DNA of 64,000 nucleotides, taken from the NCBI GenBank assembly GCA_000293845.2, contig ALYF01000002.1, forward strand, positions 186,001 through 250,000, read 5' to 3'. Position 1 is the first letter of the stretch. Every line of letters starts with the position of its first letter. The stretch comes from an alpha proteobacterium IMCC14465. GTDB lineage: Bacteria > Pseudomonadota > Alphaproteobacteria > RS24. Under the pieces are notes generated by a model. It saw only the letters and a program-made list of their open reading frames with translations. It had not been told where the DNA came from and did no database searches. Shown here piece by piece: positions 23,826 through 32,766 of this stretch. The position numbers were made by a program, and so were the translations under genes.

Positions 23826-24007
23826 TTTTCTTCTCCTTAGTTGGTTGACTATGTAGGGTATACTATTGAGAAACTAAATATGGACAATATTTGTTGATTT
23901 TTTTTTAACATCTATTGGTATCGCATCCAGCCAAAAGTATTTTTCTAAGTGCTTTACTGAAGCGGTAATCTGGACGGGCTGGTACCACACCACACCATTC
24001 GCAAAGG

Positions 24008-24026
24008 ACTACTCCCACTCAGTAGT
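24008..24026. repeat. Left attachment site (13-bp repeat within a symmetric core)
   Basis: The 13-base repeat (24008-24020) matches the copy in guaA exactly. Here it continues with AGTAGT (24021-24026), giving ACTACT - CCCACTC - AGTAGT: perfect 6-base inverted arms around a 7-base spacer. This is the geometry of a tyrosine recombinase core site, with the crossover probably in the 7-base spacer. The right arm is element DNA and the left flank is chromosome. Confidence 0.88.
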
Positions 24027-24068
24027 AACAATGATATTTTCCTGTTTAATATCAGTAATTTACTACCT
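24022..24068. repeat. Bipartite inverted repeat just inside the left end
   Basis: GTAGTAA (24022-24028) pairs with TTACTAC (24062-24068), and inside it TGATATT (24032-24038) pairs with AATATCA (24048-24054) around a 9-base loop. Both arms are perfect. It starts one base inside the attachment core, where accessory protein or recombinase arm sites are expected. Confidence 0.6.
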
Positions 24069-24113
24069 GGCAATAGTTTGTGTGAAACTTGTGTGTAACT
24101 CACCATCCACTCT

Positions 24114-24133
24114 GCACGTTTTTTCTACGCTTG
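24114..24133. repeat. 20-bp element-specific direct repeat, copy 1
   Basis: The 20 bases starting GCACG, then six T, then CTACGCTTG, recur perfectly at 27645-27664. Both copies are non-coding and in the same orientation. Role unknown: the options are a protein binding site or a remnant of a duplicated regulatory region. Confidence 0.75.
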
Positions 24134-24188
24134 TGTAGCTATTGCAATTCAATAGTTTACGCAATCATTTGTTGCACATTGTAAGACG

Positions 24189-24217
24189 AAGAACGTGCTA
24201 AATTCATCCACGTTCTT
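24189..24217 (-). terminator. Hairpin at the end of the leftward cargo operon
   Basis: AAGAACGTG (24189-24197) and CACGTTCTT (24209-24217) form a perfect 9-base stem with an 11-base loop. It begins 13 bases past the stop of the last leftward gene. No clean T-run follows, so it may be a weak or factor-assisted terminator or an mRNA-stabilising end. Confidence 0.5.
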
Positions 24218-24229
24218 GCCTTCTTTCGT

Positions 24230-24661
24230 TCACTTGCTCTTCTGTGTCACTCGTCTGCCAAACTGCGCTTGCTTCTCTATCAGCGCATCTAACTCACCAA
24301 GCTCAGCAGCTTCACGCACTTTAGTTAGTACATCAGCAACCTCTGCCTCACTGCCTAGTTCGATGGCATTCTTGCCTTTGGCAAACTCTAGTGGCTTGCT
24401 TCCATAGCGCACTACAAGATTTATCTTTCCATCAACACTAGCAGTCCACCAACGCTTAACACGTTTAGCAACTTCTACTTTTCGTTGGTTACCATACTCA
24501 TCGGTAACCCACTTTTGCTGCGTTGGTGTGTAGTCTTTATTAGCTGAAAGTTGGATTTGTTCATCAATCTTCGCAATCAGCTTGCGACGACGAACAGCGA
24601 TAGGGTTGTTGTTAGCGAGTGGATTAAAAGTAACGAAATTCAGTTTATCAAGTACAGTCAT
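24230..24661 (-). CDS. DUF6641-like island protein
   Basis: A 143-residue basic protein of unknown function. It has an RRRKLIAKIDEQIQLA-like helix near residue 24, a central VAKRVKRWWTASVDGKINLVV stretch, and RYGSKPLEFAKGKNAIELGS, ending in a charged helix. From memory this layout matches DUF6641, a family often found in integrase-linked islands; no search was made. AGGAGG lies seven bases before the ATG. It is the last gene of the leftward cargo and is followed by a hairpin. Confidence 0.75.
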   Translation of the reverse strand: MTVLDKLNFVTFNPLANNNPIAVRRRKLIAKIDEQIQLSANKDYTPTQQKWVTDEYGNQRKVEVAKRVKRWWTASVDGKINLVVRYGSKPLEFAKGKNAIELGSEAEVADVLTKVREAAELGELDALIEKQAQFGRRVTQKSK

Positions 24662-24723
24662 AACAGCCTCCTAGTTAGCTAAAAGCATTGTGCTTTCAGA
24701 GTTCGAAGGCTGTCATCCGAAGA

Positions 24724-25425
24724 TTAGTCGTCAACGTTCAGAAATTTATCTAGCTTGAATACGTCATCTTTAGATGCTGGCGCTGTGTCTTTACCAATGT
24801 TATGCATTGCACGTTCAACTGCAGCTAACTTAACACTCAGCTTGCTTGTAAGTCTGATGTCATCACTTAGCTTTTCATGACTACGTGACGTAACCAAGCG
24901 TGGCAGTGACACTATGTCTGCGCTTAAGTCACCACCTACTTCAAAGCTAATGTCTCTATCAAACCAAACACGAAGGTTGCTGTCATAATGCAGAAGCTCT
25001 TGCAGTATCTCTAGCGCATCTTCGCAAAGCCTTTCACTCTTATTGTAAAACTTCTTTGCAGTAGAGTGCTTACCTTTGCTGCTGTAGCCTTCTGCGCGAT
25101 TGTAGTTAAAGGTAGCTTCTCGCAGCTTTTCCTCGTATCGCTTTAAGTCGCTTGGTTTATCTTTAAGTTCTTGGCGCAGCTCTAGTTGCTCTTCCCACTC
25201 TGTTTCTATCTGTGCATATTCATCTTCACTTAGCCAAGTTTTCAGCTGACGGTTTTGCACGTTTTCTCCACGTCTAAGTTTGTCAGCTATCGCTTGCAAC
25301 TTGCTATGACGCTTTTCTTCTTCAGAAGTGAGTTTGCGACGTGGATTAGCTTTGTCAATTCGCTCATTTAGCAACCTACGAAAGTTACTGTTCGGCTTCC
25401 TCTGATTATCAAACCACTCGCTCAT
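24724..25425 (-). CDS. Uncharacterised helical protein coupled to the acyltransferase
   Basis: A 233-residue soluble protein that I do not recognise. It is rich in Lys, Glu, Arg and Asp. A charged region at about 10-85 is followed by helices likely to form coiled coils (about 85-150), and the last 80 residues are less charged with an SRSHEKLSDDIRLTSKLSVK stretch. No signal peptide, membrane segment or catalytic motif is visible. Its ATG overlaps the stop of the acyltransferase gene (TAATG), so the two are translated together. Confidence 0.72.
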   Translation of the reverse strand: MSEWFDNQRKPNSNFRRLLNERIDKANPRRKLTSEEEKRHSKLQAIADKLRRGENVQNRQLKTWLSEDEYAQIETEWEEQLELRQELKDKPSDLKRYEEKLREATFNYNRAEGYSSKGKHSTAKKFYNKSERLCEDALEILQELLHYDSNLRVWFDRDISFEVGGDLSADIVSLPRLVTSRSHEKLSDDIRLTSKLSVKLAAVERAMHNIGKDTAPASKDDVFKLDKFLNVDD

Positions 25426-27359
25426 TAAATGTCACTTAGGAACGGATGTAAAAATTTCTCTAGTGCAGCTTGCTGCGAAAAATATTGAGAACCACTAATT
25501 GTGTGATGTCCGTAATCATAAAAATTCTTGGACAAATCAGCATCTACGGCAAAACATTGTTCTATTTCCACGTTACATACATAGTCCATCCGATTTAACG
25601 TGGGTATGCCAAAGTTATTTGAAATTTGAGAAAGCTTTGCGTTTATGCTCGATATTCTATCATTAGAGCTGGAATTGAAGTATTCAAAATAAGAACGATT
25701 AACTTCATACGAGATAACTTCTAATGAAGCGCCAATGTTGTCCAAAACTATTTTATCTATCAGGCTGTAACCTGAAGCTTCCCCGGGAAATTCAAAGATA
25801 TTCAGAACGAGAAGAATTTTCTTACCATCGCCCTGTACAGCCTCAATTAAACTGGGAAGGAGTTCAATATCGTAAGAGTCATATCTAGTTGCTATTACTA
25901 TTGTATCCGCTGCGATATAGTTCTTGGATTCCCAGAAGTCATGAGAAGAATCGAGGTTTCGAACTTGCTCTCCAAATCGAGCGACTTGATTTCTTGAGGA
26001 GAACATTTTGCTTTGATACAGAATATTGAAGATGTCTTTAGAGTGCGAATTCCCAACCAAAAGAACTTTATTTTTTCTTGAGACATCATCAAACCAAAGT
26101 TCGTAATCATAGTTATTTCCTGATACTCCATAGCCATTATCGTTGGACAACTCTCTTAGAATATCCCAAGATTGCTTCTGTAGAAATTTGTTGTCAGCAA
26201 TATATCCACCCAGCTCTAAATTATGTAGCTTTTGATAAGGAGAAAACCTTCCTGAGTTCATTTCTTTGAAGTTGAAATGCCCATATAGTCCGACAGACAT
26301 GAAAGCCAATATGCCAGCAGTAGAGAAGTACAATATGCCTTTAGAGCTTACTTTACGCTTCTCTCTAAAGGGGGATTCAATGAATTTCCAGCTTAGATAG
26401 GCAAAAAATAAAGATATCGCTGACAGAAAAACCATTAACCATTCCTCAGCCATCCCCCCCTTATATACCCTCGCAAAAGCGAAAAGTGGCTGATGCCATA
26501 GGTAAGCTGAGTAACTAATTAAACCAATTCCAACAAAGCCTTTGGTACTGAGTACCTTTGCCGCAAATGTATCTTTTTCTGCATACAGTACTAGCAGTAC
26601 AACACCAATTACTGGCACTAGTGCATACACACTAGGAAAAGGCGTAGTTTCGTCGTAGAAAAAGATTGAAAAGATAATTGCTGCTAAGCCGACTAGCGCT
26701 AATAAGTTGTTCTTCTGAACCCCTTGCTTCTGAACAATAAAGGCAGCAATAGAACCAGCGAATAACTCCCAAGCTCGTGTAGGTGCTAAATAAAAGTTAG
26801 CTGAGGCTTTGTTACGCCAACCCCATTCACTAAGTAACAAACTGATTGCTGCCATCACAACAATCATCCAAAACACTCTGTTCTTACCAAAGCGCCACGC
26901 TAATATTAGGAAGATAGGAAATACAACGTAGTACTGTTCTTCAACAGCTAGACTCCATGTATGCAGCAAAGGTTTTTCTTCAGCAGCTGCATCGAAGTAA
27001 CCACTCTGGCGCCAAAATAGGATGTTAGATGCAAACAAACTTACGGCAACAAGACTTTGCGAAAAGCCTTTCATCTGATTTGGCAGCATCCACATCCAAG
27101 CAAATGGAATGCATACAAGCATTACAAAGAAAAGTGCTGGCAGTATTCGTCTAGCACGTCTTTCATAGAAGTTAACGATACTAAATCGTTTGTTCTCTAT
27201 GTCTCCGATAAGGATTGTCGTAATCAAGTAGCCACTGATTACAAAGAACACATCAACGCCGACAAAGCCCCCACTAAATATTTCAAATCCAGCGTGAAAT
27301 AAGATTACGGGGACAACAGCAAGTGCTCGCAAGCCGTCAATTTCAGCGCGATATTTCAA
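25425..27359 (-). CDS. OafA-type membrane O-acyltransferase with SGNH domain
   Basis: A 644-residue inner-membrane enzyme that probably moves acetyl or another acyl group to a cell-surface polysaccharide. Residues 1-335 are the acyltransferase-3 domain: EIDGLRALAVVPVILFH (His22), GGFVGVDVFFVISGYL and YERRARRILPA, with about ten membrane segments. Residues 430-644 form a periplasmic SGNH domain with GNSHS (Ser438) and the matching D-x-x-H at 615-618. The start is TTG at 27357-27359, with AAAGGA eight bases upstream. Both active sites look intact. Confidence 0.9.
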   Translation of the reverse strand: MKYRAEIDGLRALAVVPVILFHAGFEIFSGGFVGVDVFFVISGYLITTILIGDIENKRFSIVNFYERRARRILPALFFVMLVCIPFAWMWMLPNQMKGFSQSLVAVSLFASNILFWRQSGYFDAAAEEKPLLHTWSLAVEEQYYVVFPIFLILAWRFGKNRVFWMIVVMAAISLLLSEWGWRNKASANFYLAPTRAWELFAGSIAAFIVQKQGVQKNNLLALVGLAAIIFSIFFYDETTPFPSVYALVPVIGVVLLVLYAEKDTFAAKVLSTKGFVGIGLISYSAYLWHQPLFAFARVYKGGMAEEWLMVFLSAISLFFAYLSWKFIESPFREKRKVSSKGILYFSTAGILAFMSVGLYGHFNFKEMNSGRFSPYQKLHNLELGGYIADNKFLQKQSWDILRELSNDNGYGVSGNNYDYELWFDDVSRKNKVLLVGNSHSKDIFNILYQSKMFSSRNQVARFGEQVRNLDSSHDFWESKNYIAADTIVIATRYDSYDIELLPSLIEAVQGDGKKILLVLNIFEFPGEASGYSLIDKIVLDNIGASLEVISYEVNRSYFEYFNSSSNDRISSINAKLSQISNNFGIPTLNRMDYVCNVEIEQCFAVDADLSKNFYDYGHHTISGSQYFSQQAALEKFLHPFLSDI

Positions 27360-27401
27360 GTTAACAATCCTTTTAGGGAAATTTAAGCGATAAGGTAAGT
27401 G

Positions 27402-27584
27402 TTACTTATCTTTAGCCTTTCTGCCTTCAGCCAATGAACCTTTCAACATGCCAGCAGTAAAACCAAACTCTTTGCAAAGACGCTTTACTTCTTTCAGTGC
27501 ATTGGCACGTTCGTTCTTCTTAGCTTCAACCATTTGCTGCTGAATTGCTTCCATTTCAGCTTTCAATTCGTCATAAGATTTCAT
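27402..27584 (-). CDS. Short H-NS-like protein without DNA-binding domain
   Basis: A 60-residue protein. The sequence reads as the N-terminal oligomerisation region of H-NS/Bv3F-type nucleoid proteins: a coiled-coil helix (DELKAEMEAIQQQMVEAKK) followed by an EVKRLCKEFGFTAGML turn that in full-length members precedes the linker. The C-terminal domain with the YRNP...TWSGRGRxP motif is absent, and a stop follows at once. GGAGGTG precedes the ATG, so it is a real gene. Truncated H-NS forms in other islands act as antagonists of silencing; that role here is inference. Confidence 0.7.
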   Translation of the reverse strand: MKSYDELKAEMEAIQQQMVEAKKNERANALKEVKRLCKEFGFTAGMLKGSLAEGRKAKDK

Positions 27585-27644
27585 CTCACACCTCCGTAGG
27601 TTAAGTGTCAGTCTGATATTATAGATTTGTTAAAAGGATGAACA

Positions 27645-27664
27645 GCACGTTTTTTCTACGCTTG
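27645..27664. repeat. 20-bp element-specific direct repeat, copy 2
   Basis: Perfect match to 24114-24133, lying 61 bases upstream of the short H-NS-like gene, in its probable promoter region. The bases that follow in both copies (TATTG, later AGT-TT and GCGCAA/ACGCAA) also look related, so a longer degenerate copy may exist. Confidence 0.75.
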
Positions 27665-27778
27665 CTGTAACGTATTGTTTTGTGACTAAAGTATTTGCGC
27701 AACGTCTCACTATGCCAGTCAGTCACTGCGGCAACCATACAGACAAACAGCTTCAAACCGTGCACTTTTGGCGTGTTT

Positions 27779-28099
27779 TCAACGTTTATCTATGCTGTCT
27801 TGTTGATTTGGTAACGGTGGTTGCGGACGAATAGGAGTGAAGTCAGTTCGTTCAGTATCTTTTGATATCGTCTTTTGCTGCGGTTGCTGCCTGACTATCT
27901 TAGTCTTTGGAATAGCTACAGTACGTGTGACTGTCTTCGTTTCTGGTTTTGCCATCTTCTTAGCAAGTGCTACCATACTGCTGCTTGTGCCTAGCATCAA
28001 CTCAAGTGCTGCCCACTTTGTCTCGTCGTCTACACGCTCGATTTCGCTGCGTATTGCGTTGAGTGCTTGCTGTATCTCTTGTAAGGCACTTTTGTTCAT
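27779..28099 (-). CDS. Small uncharacterised island protein
   Basis: About 106 residues from the ATG at 28097-28099; an in-frame TTG five codons upstream would give 111. The N-terminal half is helical (MNKSALQEIQQALNAIRSEI, then DDETKWAALELML). The C-terminal half is basic and proline/threonine-rich, without clear structure. No family recognised. No good ribosome binding site is visible before either start, so the gene is less certain than its neighbours. It runs leftward toward the H-NS-like gene. Confidence 0.5.
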   Translation of the reverse strand: MNKSALQEIQQALNAIRSEIERVDDETKWAALELMLGTSSSMVALAKKMAKPETKTVTRTVAIPKTKIVRQQPQQKTISKDTERTDFTPIRPQPPLPNQQDSIDKR

Positions 28100-28253
28100 A
28101 CTGTTATTTAGCAACTAGCAGACTGGGGTGATGCGAAATCACCACCTAACTTCTGTAAGTACTCCACCATAGAAAACCGCTGCACGAAATTTTCACGCCT
28201 AAAACCCAATTTCGGATGACGAGGTTGTTGACGTGAAGCTACAGTGTTAATTG

Positions 28254-28568
28254 TCAAACCCTCACCTCATCTTTCCACCACCCCACAGCATCAGTATTAA
28301 TCTGCTTGTGACACTGTTCGCTGAGTTCAATAAAATGCTTCCCAAGCTGCGTATGCTGTTCTGTCGCCGTCATACAGCGTCCGTAGTGCTGTAGTTTGCT
28401 TGCACATATAGCCAACGTACCAACACTGGGTTTTACACGCTTAAATCGCAGCGTACGCATGTAGCACTCGCTTCTGCATAGCCAATCTTTGCTGAACTCG
28501 CTTTCGCTGCTTACAGCGCCAATCTGCTGCAATAACTCAAATACGTCGTTTAGAACCGTTTTCTGCAT
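28254..28568 (-). CDS. Small helical island protein (DUF6626-like)
   Basis: A 104-residue protein. The start ATG at 28566-28568 has GAGGAAAA seven bases upstream; the longer frame reaching 28670 lacks a site. The core SEFSKDWLCRSECYMRTLRF and PSVGTLAICASKL looks like a small helix-turn-helix or helical domain and recalls DUF6626 (from memory, unsearched). Such proteins occur in integrated elements, and a regulatory role is possible. It is the first gene of the leftward cargo and its leader contains a strong bipartite inverted repeat. Confidence 0.68.
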   Translation of the reverse strand: MQKTVLNDVFELLQQIGAVSSESEFSKDWLCRSECYMRTLRFKRVKPSVGTLAICASKLQHYGRCMTATEQHTQLGKHFIELSEQCHKQINTDAVGWWKDEVRV

Positions 28569-28584
28569 GAAATTTTCCTCAGTT

Positions 28585-28631
28585 GATAAATAACAATATG
28601 CACAGCTTGTAAGTGTTGCTGTGTATTTATC
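28585..28631 (-). promoter_or_regulatory. Bipartite inverted repeat in the leader of the first cargo gene
   Basis: GATAAATA (28585-28592) pairs with TATTTATC (28624-28631), and inside it CACAGC (28601-28606) pairs with GCTGTG (28618-28623). All arms are perfect. It ends 17 bases before the start codon at 28568, just ahead of the ribosome binding site, so it could be an operator or an mRNA hairpin that controls translation. Confidence 0.5.
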
Positions 28632-28798
28632 TGCGCATAGTGCCCAACTAAACGATATCGAGTTTGCCAACGCGAGTTGCAGCCAACGGATTTTGTCAGC
28701 ACACGTAGCGTTCTAGCAGAGGCGTTCAAAAGCGGTAGCTTCGTAATCGCTATACAAAACAAGACGCATGATAAGTCTGTGGATGATGAAACTGCAGA

Positions 28799-29152
28799 AG
28801 CTGCGTAGCACACTGTGTAATGCTACGTAGTTGCGTTGGTACTTAGGCAAGTAAACGGTAATAGCCCAACCATACCGAAACTTAGCAGCAGCTAAGAAGG
28901 CTTGTTACACAGTGGCTGATAAGCAACTCAAATGAGACGCTAATAGCTGTTAGAAGGCTGCTTAAGCCTTCTTATGGCTAAACACAATCTAAATGAGCCA
29001 CTTCAATAACGATAGGAAAATAATACGCTGTGCTGTATGTGATTGAGCGAATGCGAAAGAACAAACGGCACAAGTAGTGTTAGCGAAGCTGACACTCGAA
29101 CAGCACTTCAAATAAGTAAGAAAAGTGCGATTATCTTACATTTCTACGTAAG
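28799..29152. other. Cluster of inverted repeats, candidate structured RNA or recombination/transfer site
   Basis: Stems found by eye: 28801-28810 with 28821-28830 (10 pairs, one G-U, extendable by two); 28881-28886 with 28891-28896 (6); 28952-28959 with 28965-28972 (8), with an outer TAGC/GCTA at 28944 and 28977; 29077-29084 with 29088-29095 (8, GAA loop); 29103-29108 with 29123-29128 (6); 29135-29139 with 29148-29152 (5). Such density in 350 bases directly upstream of a recombinase suggests function, but no known RNA or oriT motif was recognised. Confidence 0.45.
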
Positions 29153-29256
29153 TCTTTGATGTATGGAAGGAATTATATGAGCACTTATTGGTTGCTCAAA
29201 TAGAACCTCAGAAAATACGCTATATGCACGAAAATATTACATTTAGGTGATGGCAT

Positions 29257-29826
29257 ATGGCACAAGCAAAGACACTTAACAAAACAGAACTTAAACAGCT
29301 ACTAGACGTAACAAATTCGTGCAGTCGTTATCCACTGCGTGACAGCATCATGCTGTTGTTTACGCATTTATGTGGTTTGCGTGTTGGAGAAGTAGCTGCG
29401 CTGCGCTTTGATGATGTACTTGATGCAAACGATACAGTACGAGACGAAATAACACTTGATGCAGCACGTACGAAATCAAAACGAGCACGTAAGATATTTC
29501 TACCAAAGCAAATGCAGCGTCAGCTACAAGCATACGTTAGCAGCGTCACAAAGCGTCCACAGCACGGTTATTTGTTTTCTACACAAAAGAGTGCAAGGTT
29601 TAGTGCAAACACCGCTACACAGCATCTACAACGCTTGTATGCACGTGCTGGAATTGCTGGCGCTACGTCACACAGTGGCAGACGCACGTGGTTAACAACG
29701 CTAAGCCAAAAGGGAGTAAGTGTGTTTGTGCTAGCTGACATGGCTGGACATCGCAGCATTCAGACAACACAGAGGTACGTAACAGTTAACGATGAGATGA
29801 AACGCAATGCTGCTGAGTTGATTTAG
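29257..29826 (+). CDS. Small tyrosine recombinase, catalytic domain only
   Basis: A 189-residue site-specific recombinase that consists only of the catalytic domain, like FimB/FimE-sized enzymes, with no core-binding N-terminal domain. The full active site is present: Arg42 (CGLRVGE), Lys73, His139-x-x-Arg142 (TSHSGRR), His165 (AGHRS) and the nucleophile Tyr174. AGGTG precedes the ATG. It converges on the large recombinase and the two stop codons overlap (TTAG). It might invert or excise DNA, or help the large integrase. Confidence 0.88.
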   Translation: MAQAKTLNKTELKQLLDVTNSCSRYPLRDSIMLLFTHLCGLRVGEVAALRFDDVLDANDTVRDEITLDAARTKSKRARKIFLPKQMQRQLQAYVSSVTKRPQHGYLFSTQKSARFSANTATQHLQRLYARAGIAGATSHSGRRTWLTTLSQKGVSVFVLADMAGHRSIQTTQRYVTVNDEMKRNAAELI

Positions 29827-31058
29827 ACAACTTCAATAGTGCCATCATCTCTACGTCTGTAGTCGGCTACAGCGTTGGTTAAACGGATTTCATCGTTAAG
29901 GTGGTAATACGTCTTTTCAATCTGTGCCACGCTAGTACCACACATATCTGCTATCTGCCTAAACGTTAAGCCACTCATAATACGCTGCGTAATCATAAAG
30001 TGACGCAAGCTGTAGGGTACCAAGTCACGTGTTTCCCTATCTGCAATCTCTGCTAACTCAATCATCTTGTGCCAGTGGTATAGCAGCGTACGCTTGCTTA
30101 GTTCGCTCTCATTGTCGATTGTAAAGATTAACTCGTCTGCAGTTTTAGGCTTGGATATATCGCGTAGTCGTTCAAAGTACTGTCCATTACGACACAAGAA
30201 GGTACGGCTCGTGCGCACTTTGCTTGTCTCTGCACGAACATGGATGCGTGCTAGCTTTTGTTGTTCGCCATTCACTGTGTGCGTTTCAATCTGTACATCA
30301 CTCCAACGTATCTGTCGCTGTTCGCCAACTCGTAAACCACTGTTAGCTGCGATTAGCACGTAGTGCTGCACGATTTTTCGCACTCTAAGTTCTGCGTCAT
30401 CTAGCTTGTTGTGTTTGGCAGTGTAAGTACGCATAGCACGATACAGTGCTTCGTATTCATCGTTAGTCAGTGTTGCACGACGTATAGCTTCATTGCCTGT
30501 GTCTAAGCGTGGTAGCTTCTTAAATTCGAAGCCATCAATGTGTGTTTCGCCATTCTTATGCAGCCACTTCATCAGCGCATTAATTGTGCTTTGTTCGTTC
30601 TGCACTGTGACTTGTTTGACGTTGCCGTTTGTAGCTTTGTGGCGATGGTAGAAGTAGTTTTCGCAGTCAGTACGTTCTAGTTCTTTCAGCTTAGTGTCTT
30701 TGCCAATGAAACTAAGAAAGTGTTGTAGATGCGTTGCGATTGTTGTGTGTCGTCCCTTAACGATGTGCCCAAGTTCAACGTCACGCATACGGAAGCTAAG
30801 ATACTTCTCCACACCTTCTTTTGTGGTTATGGAGAAGTAGGATTTGCCTTGTTGCAAATTAGCGTAAATCTCTAAGTACGCAGCTTTACCCTTTTCTATT
30901 GCAGTAGCTTCACTGCGTGTACGAAGGCTTTTACGTGCGTACTTGTTTTCTTTTGGCAACCACATACGAAACTGCCAATACTCGCCTCGCTTGTAGATAC
31001 AAGCCTCGTCAAATATGGCTATTTCGCCTTCAGCAAAGTGCTGTTTCTTCAGTGCCAA
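29823..31058 (-). CDS. Phage-type tyrosine recombinase (integrase)
   Basis: A 411-residue integrase, the likely enzyme for insertion at guaA because it lies next to that end. It has an N-terminal arm-binding-like part (to about 80), a SAM-like core-binding domain (about 80-175) and a catalytic domain. Active-site residues are Arg243 (SGLRVGE), Lys280, Arg352 (PYSLRH, with Tyr in the first histidine place), Thr in the second histidine place (MCGTS), and the nucleophile Tyr384 or Tyr385. The start is TTG at 31056-31058, with only a weak ribosome binding site. The substitutions occur in other phage-type integrases. Confidence 0.9.
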   Translation of the reverse strand: MALKKQHFAEGEIAIFDEACIYKRGEYWQFRMWLPKENKYARKSLRTRSEATAIEKGKAAYLEIYANLQQGKSYFSITTKEGVEKYLSFRMRDVELGHIVKGRHTTIATHLQHFLSFIGKDTKLKELERTDCENYFYHRHKATNGNVKQVTVQNEQSTINALMKWLHKNGETHIDGFEFKKLPRLDTGNEAIRRATLTNDEYEALYRAMRTYTAKHNKLDDAELRVRKIVQHYVLIAANSGLRVGEQRQIRWSDVQIETHTVNGEQQKLARIHVRAETSKVRTSRTFLCRNGQYFERLRDISKPKTADELIFTIDNESELSKRTLLYHWHKMIELAEIADRETRDLVPYSLRHFMITQRIMSGLTFRQIADMCGTSVAQIEKTYYHLNDEIRLTNAVADYRRRDDGTIEVV

Positions 31059-31220
31059 ATCTTAGTCTCTGAGTTACTACGAGTTTCAGTAGTCACACGT
31101 TTGTGCAACATTTTGTGTAACTGTATGAAAAAAGACTAAGGAAATCAACGATTGACTTCTTACTGTGAAAGTAATGTGTAAGTCATTAATATAATAAAAT
31201 CAATTACTTAAACTAAAAAA

Positions 31221-31233
31221 ACTACTCCCACTC
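31221..31233. repeat. Right attachment site at the guaA 3' end
   Basis: The 13 bases ACTACTCCCACTC match 24008-24020. On the minus strand they encode the last GuaA residues (IEWE with the TAG stop at 31222-31224). Leftward lies element DNA and rightward guaA. The right arm here (GATTGT) is not a match to ACTACT, so the target site is less symmetric than the element's own core. Confidence 0.88.
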
Positions 31234-32766
31234 GATTGTGCCGGGCGGTTTGGATGTCACATCATATACGACGCGGTTAATGCCGCGGACTTCATTGATA
31301 ATACGCGTAGAAACGCGACCTAAAAATTCATGCGTGAAGGGGTAATAATCTGCTGTCATGCCATCGGTTGACGTGACGGCACGAAGCGCGCACACATAGT
31401 CATATGTCCGGCTGTCGCCCATAACACCGACGCTACGCACCGGCAACAGCACGGCAAATGCCTGCCATATCTCATCATAAAGACCTTGCTTGCGTATCTC
31501 ATCAAGATAAACAACATCGGCTTTTCTGAGAATCTCTAGCTTCTCTTGGGTAATCTCACCTGGAATACGAATGGCGAGACCGGGGCCAGGAAACGGATGC
31601 CGTCCGACAAACGCATCGGGGAGACCAAGCTCGCGTCCTAAGTCACGCACCTCGTCTTTAAACAATTCACGTACCGGCTCAACCAGTTTCATATTCATGC
31701 GCTCAGGTAGACCACCAACATTATGATGGCTTTTAATCGTGACACTCGGCCCGCCGGTAAAAGACACGCTTTCAATTACATCGGGATAGAGCGTACCCTG
31801 CGCGAGAAAATCCGCACCGCCAACCGCCTCTGCCTCGGCCTCAAAAACATCAATAAATGTCGCGCCAATAATCTTACGCTTTTGCTCAGGGTCAGAGACG
31901 CCATCTAGCTTGGATAAAAATAGATCAGACGCATCCCTATGAACGAGCTTGATATTATAATGGTCACGGAACAAGCCAACCACCTGCTCACTTTCGCCGG
32001 CGCGCATCATGCCCGTATCGACATAAACACAAGTCAGCTGCTCGCCAATCGCTTCATGCAACAAGACAGCCACGACAGAGCTATCAACCCCGCCAGAGAG
32101 ACCGCAAATCACCCGCCCCTCACCGACCTGCGCGCGCACTTGATCAATTGCTTTTTTCTTGAAAGCCGCCATCGACCATTGCCCGTCACATCCAGCAATA
32201 TTATGCGTAAAGTTCCGTAACATTTTCGCGCCATCCGGCGTATGCACAACCTCGGGGTGGAACTGCACCCCGTAAATTTTATCTGCTTCATTGGCAATGG
32301 CGGCAAAAGGGGCGTTCTCAGATGTGCCAATCACCTCAAATTTTTCCGGTAGAGCCATGACACGGTCACCATGGCTCATCCATACTTGAACTTCAGAACC
32401 CGGATTTGCAATCCCTTCAAAAAGCGGACTGGCTTTCGACAGTGACAATTTAGAACGACCAAATTCACGTTCGTTAGATGTCTCGACACGACCACCGAGC
32501 TGGGCGCATAGGGTTTGCTGACCATAGCAAATGCCAAGTATGGGTTTGCCTGATTTCAGAATTTCTTCGGGTGCGCGCGGCGTATCGATGTCTGCTACGC
32601 TATTAGGCCCACCAGACAAAATAACGGCATTAGGGTCAATTTCGGCAAATTTCTCAGAGGCACTCTGAAAAGGCACTATCTCACAATAGACACCACTTTC
32701 TCTTACACGTCGGGCGATAAGCTGGGTTACCTGACTGCCAAAATCAATAATCAGAATGCGGTCCAT
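31222..32766 (-). CDS. guaA: GMP synthase (glutamine-hydrolysing)
   Basis: Converts XMP to GMP with glutamine and ATP. The N-terminal class I amidotransferase domain carries the nucleophile in GICYGQQ (about 80) and the His/Glu pair in FHPEVVHT. The ATP-pyrophosphatase domain has the P-loop [10 protein letters not shown]. The C-terminal dimerisation domain ends in PPGTIEWE. Length 514. The stop codon lies in the element's attachment site but the protein is complete. It directly follows the TPR gene with no gap (TAA then ATG), in a leftward guaB-TPR-guaA set. Confidence 0.97.

Follow-up and report, generated by a model that had tools for sequence, protein, structure and literature searches.

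The hairpin cluster at 28799-29152 forms the 3′ portion of a module that comprises a repeat (R1), a variable hairpin (H1), the partner repeat (R2), and two further hairpins (H2 and H3). The module lies in a 64-kb window (W, the whole 64,000-nucleotide stretch analysed) of the 1.92-Mb genome of a marine bacterium and appears to be a genuine functional part of mobile islands. What was a single hairpin cluster is now a recurring module with testable anatomy.

The element and the anatomy of its module

Direct repeats at the guaA stop (family D3, 16 of 18 positions identical) suggest that the module is carried by a 7.2-kb integrative element (Table 1). Integrases aimed at the guaA 3′ flank are known (PMC8138268), and recombinase, integrase, and guaA are also adjacent in L007, L008, L011, and L012. 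The element additionally encodes an acyltransferase/SGNH protein. In the small recombinase, R42, K73, H139, R142, H165, and Y174 are invariant across 12 sequences. A scan of viral contigs gave no match with the window protein as query and 80 loci, mostly remote, with an alignment as query; a search with DUF6626 gave matches in 8 of 398 genomes. Intact and decayed element copies stand in an array within one MAG (L022, L010, and L008; contig CALSNA010000001.1, 204-228 kb), whose Pseudomonadales label may reflect mis-binning. An AAA+ ATPase is common to related elements (L016, L017, L023, and L122), as are other proteins that have no clear Pfam family (clusters c8, c9, and c10).

Table 1 Features of the element and its module in the window
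Feature	Position	Strand	Description
Integrative element	24003-31233		7.2 kb, at guaA 3′ end; imperfect 18-bp direct repeats at 24003-24020 and 31216-31233
DUF6641 protein	24230-24661	-	PF20346, 4.3e-20
DUF6626 protein	28254-28568	-	PF20331, 1.4e-34; listed ORF extends to 28670
H0	28585-28631		hairpin immediately 5′ of DUF6626 gene; bounds the variable stretch on the left; seen in six sequences
Module 5′ part	28632-28898	+	weakly folded; homologous in L009 and G008
Stem	28799-28832		12 pairs with wobbles, 10-nt loop
R1	28927-28936	+	CTCAAATGAG
H1	28946-28978	+	long hairpin; 14 positions, 13 paired; sequence unrelated between lineages
R2	28988-28997	+	TCTAAATGAG
H2	29030-29072	+	7 pairs plus inner pairs; TGAGC-GAAT-GCGA flanked by two tandem G-A steps
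H3	29076-29096	+	9 pairs, GAA loop; AGTGTTAGC-GAA-GCTGACACT
Core site	29116-29139		GTAAGAAAA-6-TTATCTTAC; presumed site of small recombinase, separate from module
Small tyrosine recombinase	29257-29826	+	189 aa, catalytic domain only; PF00589, 5.9e-29
Integrase	29823-31058	-	411 aa, presumed to act at guaA; PF00589, 5.1e-13
guaA	31222-32766		Pfam

The stems reported in an earlier note on this DNA are borne out, with nine pairs rather than eight in the stem with the GAA loop; an outer stem, GTGGCT/AGCCAC, is also found in the interval. In agreement with that note, no gene accounts for the hairpins: no ORF of at least 80 aa lies inside 28799-29152, except for the end of an 87-aa minus-strand ORF that reaches 28813. 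When both strands were folded against 500 dinucleotide shuffles, a check proposed earlier, the + strand (−111.3 kcal/mol, shuffled mean −86.4, z −4.9) was more stable than all 500 and the − strand (z −3.2) than 499; an earlier run with 200 shuffles gave z −4.4 and −3.4, respectively. On the + strand, H1 alone has a z of −4.5 and H2-H3 of −5.4 (500 shuffles). Among 64 sliding 120-nt windows across 27400-31299, the lowest z on either strand, −6.8, belongs to the + strand of 28900-29019. Folding of 28777-28898 is nothing unusual relative to shuffled sequence (z −1.3, 47 of 500), so the dense structured run described before stands for 28900-29096 and less so for the first third of the interval. 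The hairpins are real, and their signal lies within 28900-29096 rather than in that first third. DNA energies likewise favour the + strand.

The copies compared share one arrangement, all on a single strand: CTC-R1, H1, TCT/CCT-R2, H2, and H3. The H2 core (TGAGC-N-GCGA or GAGC-N-GCGT) is present in 18 of 23 module copies, and 13 of the 23 have a GNA-triloop stem of at least six pairs at the H3 place. The H1 loop varies among copies, and one-sided changes in the stems use G-U pairs on the + strand. No third segment complementary to the R repeats is consistent across 13 copies, and no conserved sigma-70-like promoter or terminator was found for the module; a reading of the hairpins as terminators was dropped for want of a T run. 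On the left, the H0 arms GATAAATA/TATTTATC become GCTAAATA/TATTTAGC in G008, and to the right of H0 the similarity of the window to L007, L008, and L012 breaks off.

The right edge of this variable stretch, unlike the hairpins, is explained by the inverted repeat at 29116-29139, probably the Cre/Xer-type core at which the small recombinase acts. Most relatives have such a repeat upstream of the recombinase, with arms of 9-14 bp around a 6-bp spacer (AAATGTAAGAAAA-CTACAA-TTTTCTTACATTT in L011), and its position is conserved in the Rhodobacteraceae and Polynucleobacter relatives. The stretches scanned hold one core per recombinase, apart from a neighbouring recombinase's own, and the 64-kb window holds one. 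With a single inverted-repeat core and 6-bp spacer beside its gene, the recombinase resembles Cre/loxP and Xer/dif (roles in PMC8138268); it differs in its 189 residues, which make up a catalytic domain only. The earlier suggestion that the hairpins are arm sites of this recombinase is not supported: the recombinase has a core of its own, L011 and L151 have that core but no hairpins, and recombinase and core both stand 18 kb away from the module in G770. A conserved structured element, be it the RNA or the single-strand DNA origin of the earlier note, is supported by recurrence and by the H1 stems described below.

Recurrence in related elements

Related elements in SAR116, Rhodobacteraceae, and Polynucleobacter show this layout too. 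One scan of genome contigs returned 16 loci with relatives of the recombinase (43-96% identity), close copies of the element are present in SAR116 genomes (L007 and L012), and module copies are found in W, L009, G008, L007, G770, L150, L158, L030, and L144. A strict module detector matched 9 of 54 loci, one of which (L011) looks false, and none of 77 controls; a loose version was dropped after matching 15 of the 77. A detector of exact repeats missed the copies in L121, L158, L144, and L030 and probably reported noise in L153 and L156. Outside its own genome (G000), the W-type module was found only in G008 by DNA searches of 192 and 385 genomes. DNA matches occur in 6 of 10 genomes of known relatives, several of them just to the stretch beside the recombinase. 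A covariance model (named R1) matched 7 of 337 genomes of the class at E ≤ 0.1, strongly only in G000 and G008; the match in G286 lies between two ORFs that by eye resemble phage head genes, and that in G242 beside unrelated ORFs. The plasmid (72,556 records) and phage collections gave no match. Scans of viral contigs with the H2 pattern gave 0 and 6 matches, three of which have a single sequence in common, with a small hairpin resembling H2, and are otherwise unrelated (L159-L161, ATGTC-TTGAGCGAATGCGAAA-GACAT).

The hairpin region is common to W, L009 (Rhodobacteraceae HTCC2150), and G008, which belongs to the family of the window's genome. Between W and G008, about 91% of alignment columns are kept in H2-H3, compared with about 53% in the recombinase and 58% in DUF6626, making the 3′ hairpins the best preserved DNA of the locus. 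L007 shares the sequence from 29025 onward and differs in the middle, and L011 has an unrelated gene that ends at the core site. In L150 (2356-2760), an ORF resembling an N-terminal GalU fragment, perhaps a remnant of the insertion site, separates core and module.

H1 is represented by six unrelated sequences in six lineages, each forming a strong stem 45-54 nt wide, and in each of eight copies none of 300 shuffles was as stable on the + strand; this replacement of one stem by unrelated stems supports the structure. The starts of R1 and R2 are 53-61 nt apart in 11 of 13 copies and 72 nt apart in two. R1 and R2 change together between copies: within a copy they differ at 5 of 105 positions, compared with 49 on permutation (0 of 100,000), a figure that is optimistic because the windows were hand-picked as repeats and three of the 15 lack the CTC and TCT/CCT flanks that anchor the other 12. 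Two pairs are changed on both sides in alignment A4, and the covariation score was reached by 39 of 500 shuffles there and by all 500, hence no signal, in alignment A9. Pair-by-pair covariation is thus not significant, since there is little variation among close copies, and the H1 sequences of distant ones defeat alignment by MAFFT. As background support only, the 450 nt before the recombinase have a negative z on the + strand in 30 of 30 loci and on the − strand in 29 of 30, in a set that retains W-type duplicates, omits L137, L138, and L144 (start not found), and is partly coding or core-containing.

The position of the module relative to genes is not fixed. In G770 it lies beside DUF6626 and c1, and the whole c1-to-core segment is inverted relative to the window (L165/L122, G770:C1 947-967 kb), with DUF6626 and the module 18 kb from the recombinase. 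DUF6626 is downstream of the module in L144 and L158, and in L030 the module lies beyond the recombinase. Such moves and flips would be open to a DNA site or a trans-acting RNA, but not to a leader.

A Rep-like gene and the Polynucleobacter-1 RNA

In L008, L012, L131, L134, and L149, the module slot is occupied by a Rep-like ORF, which comes with its own hairpins; L008 and L012 are otherwise 81-90% identical around the slot. The motifs FGTA, HxH, and YCWK are invariant in the five slot proteins, and a match to PF23343 (E 1.3e-4) lies below the family cut-off. The slot protein of these sister elements is a likely HUH Rep. With a model of the Rep, Foldseek gave no E below 1e-3, and in a VIA structure search SIRV1 ORF119 ranked second (Z 7.5, rmsd 3.9, 105 aligned), tied with ribosomal S6 and not significant. 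Module and Rep were never found together in 14 stretches of 9-64 kb (six with the module only, seven with Rep only, one with neither; Fisher p 0.0023, post hoc). In the window's element, no Rep, relaxase, or nick site was identified: tblastn with three Rep-like proteins against the window gave only E 0.24, and comparison of 13 window proteins with Pfam gave no relaxase family. Rhodobacteraceae elements whose recombinase is of the same family (L152, L153, L155, and L157) carry a second set of likely HUH Rep proteins, with about 65% identity within the set.

The Polynucleobacter copies connect the module to an orphan motif. L017 carries the Polynucleobacter-1 RNA (RF01718, 94.8 bits), which occurs at 14 places in 11 of 101 Polynucleobacter genomes, 10 of them over the cut-off. 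DUF6641 adjoins RF01718 at all 14 places, the small recombinase lies within the stretch examined at 10, and both genes are also present in the window's element. Exact repeats place R1-H1-R2 after RF01718 at 11 of the 14, and two more places show it by eye, with imperfect repeats and one truncated. RF01718 covers solely the part upstream of R1, as opposed to the module's R1-H3, and lies on the same strand directly upstream of R1-H1-R2-H2-H3, so that the module extends the orphan motif. In the window, an Rfam scan found tRNA only, and the RF01718 model had no match over the gathering cut-off, nor one in 28100-29300 with the limit relaxed to E 5. Weinberg et al. 2010 (PMC2864571) mark Polynucleobacter-1 with 'y' (probably) both for RNA and for cis-regulatory. 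Within the literature searched, RF01718 is mentioned only there, DUF6626 and DUF6641 are not mentioned, and nothing was found on SAR116 elements or Polynucleobacter islands. The RNA candidate of 2010 thereby gains a genomic home, in elements with small recombinases and DUF6641/DUF6626.

Proposed function of the module

The leading, still tentative, reading is that the module is the element's origin of replication or transfer, with the folded + strand as its active form. The guaA integrase would excise the element, and the + strand would be exposed and fold; R1 and R2, flanking H1, would be the sites that a cognate initiator or priming factor recognises, with H1-H3 keeping the strand in the required shape. 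In place of the Rep of sister elements, the initiator may be supplied by the host, a helper, or an unrecognised protein of the element. An origin is consistent with the + strand fold statistics, the strong stem formed by every H1, the joint change of R1 and R2, the better preservation of H2-H3 than of neighbouring genes between W and G008, the varying position and orientation, the exchange for a Rep-like gene, and the lack of a conserved promoter or terminator. The triloop stems at the H3 place point the same way: DNA mini-hairpins that have a GNA or GNNA loop and two or more G-C pairs are described as extraordinarily stable (PMC4686876). Against an origin stand the missing Rep, relaxase, and nick site, an unconserved H1 loop where a nick site might be expected, the non-significant Rep-model structure searches, and the absence of matches in the plasmid and phage collections.

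Other observations suit a structured RNA of the element, about 450-500 nt long and on the + strand, which would act in trans and which is nearly as likely as an origin. Polynucleobacter-1 would be its 5′ domain in Polynucleobacter, and R1 and R2 would represent a loop, present twice, that binds protein or RNA. In W-type copies the + strand folds better with RNA energies, sequence changes pass through G-U, the H2 loops GCAA/GAGA also fit RNA GNRA loops, and RF01718, rated probably RNA and cis-regulatory in PMC2864571, lies directly upstream on the same strand. Against such an RNA, no conserved sigma-70-like promoter or terminator was found, formal covariation was not significant, and the GNA triloops are of the DNA-stabilising type (PMC4686876). 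A leader acting in cis on the recombinase or DUF6626 would match the cis-regulatory rating in PMC2864571 and the location between these divergent genes in the window; it is improbable, as neighbour and orientation vary: the module is beside c1 in G770, has DUF6626 on its downstream side in L144 and L158, and is found past the recombinase in L030.

RNA II primes ColE1 replication, and by this analogy a structured + RNA might prime replication of the excised circle and replace the Rep protein. The length and the slot exchange would fit, but no promoter was found, and this reading is given little weight. As improbable as a leader are folded recombination sites for the small recombinase, comparable to attC for integron integrases. 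The recombinase with its adjacent single core and the variable stretch to its left resembles intI-attI, and the whole segment is inverted in G770; however, the hairpins do not resemble the core arms, the searched stretches hold no second core besides a neighbouring recombinase's own, and the module can lie 18 kb from the recombinase. An integron reading, which would call for several folded sites with a shared core sequence where each recombinase has a single core, was dropped, as was a bridge-RNA reading, the recombinase not being of that type. Chance hairpins or decaying sequence would agree with the 5′ third, which folds no better than shuffled sequence, but are contradicted by the fold statistics, the H1 stems, the R1/R2 match, the RF01718-linked layout, and recurrence in distant elements, and are very improbable.

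Rolling-circle replicons have double- and single-strand origins with a strand-specific hairpin cluster and flanking repeats. The module shares the cluster and the repeats, and its sister elements have a likely HUH-type Rep; it differs in the unconserved H1 loop and in an element where neither Rep nor nick site was found. It differs likewise from the oriT of mobilisable elements, with no relaxase among the 13 window proteins and no match in the plasmid records. If the module is an origin, a more speculative and rather doubtful extension is a Rep-free origin class in alpha- and betaproteobacterial integrative elements, in which a folded strand of about 500 nt, including the Polynucleobacter-1 motif, would replace the HUH Rep gene, and co-varying repeats around an exchangeable hairpin would set which initiator, or which element, the origin works with. 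The co-varying repeats and the exchange of Rep for module are handles on how small islands of aquatic bacteria move. Another close likeness is to Polynucleobacter-1 itself, which is followed by R1-H1-R2-H2-H3 near the same element genes (DUF6641 and the small recombinase). The STAXI motif (PMC2864571), likewise a structured candidate that neighbours DNA-handling genes, was weighed there as single-stranded DNA or RNA by its loop type; it occurs in Enterobacteriales as a repeated pseudoknot whose loops are UUCG, whereas GNA triloops, a long variable hairpin, and repeats in a pair mark the module.
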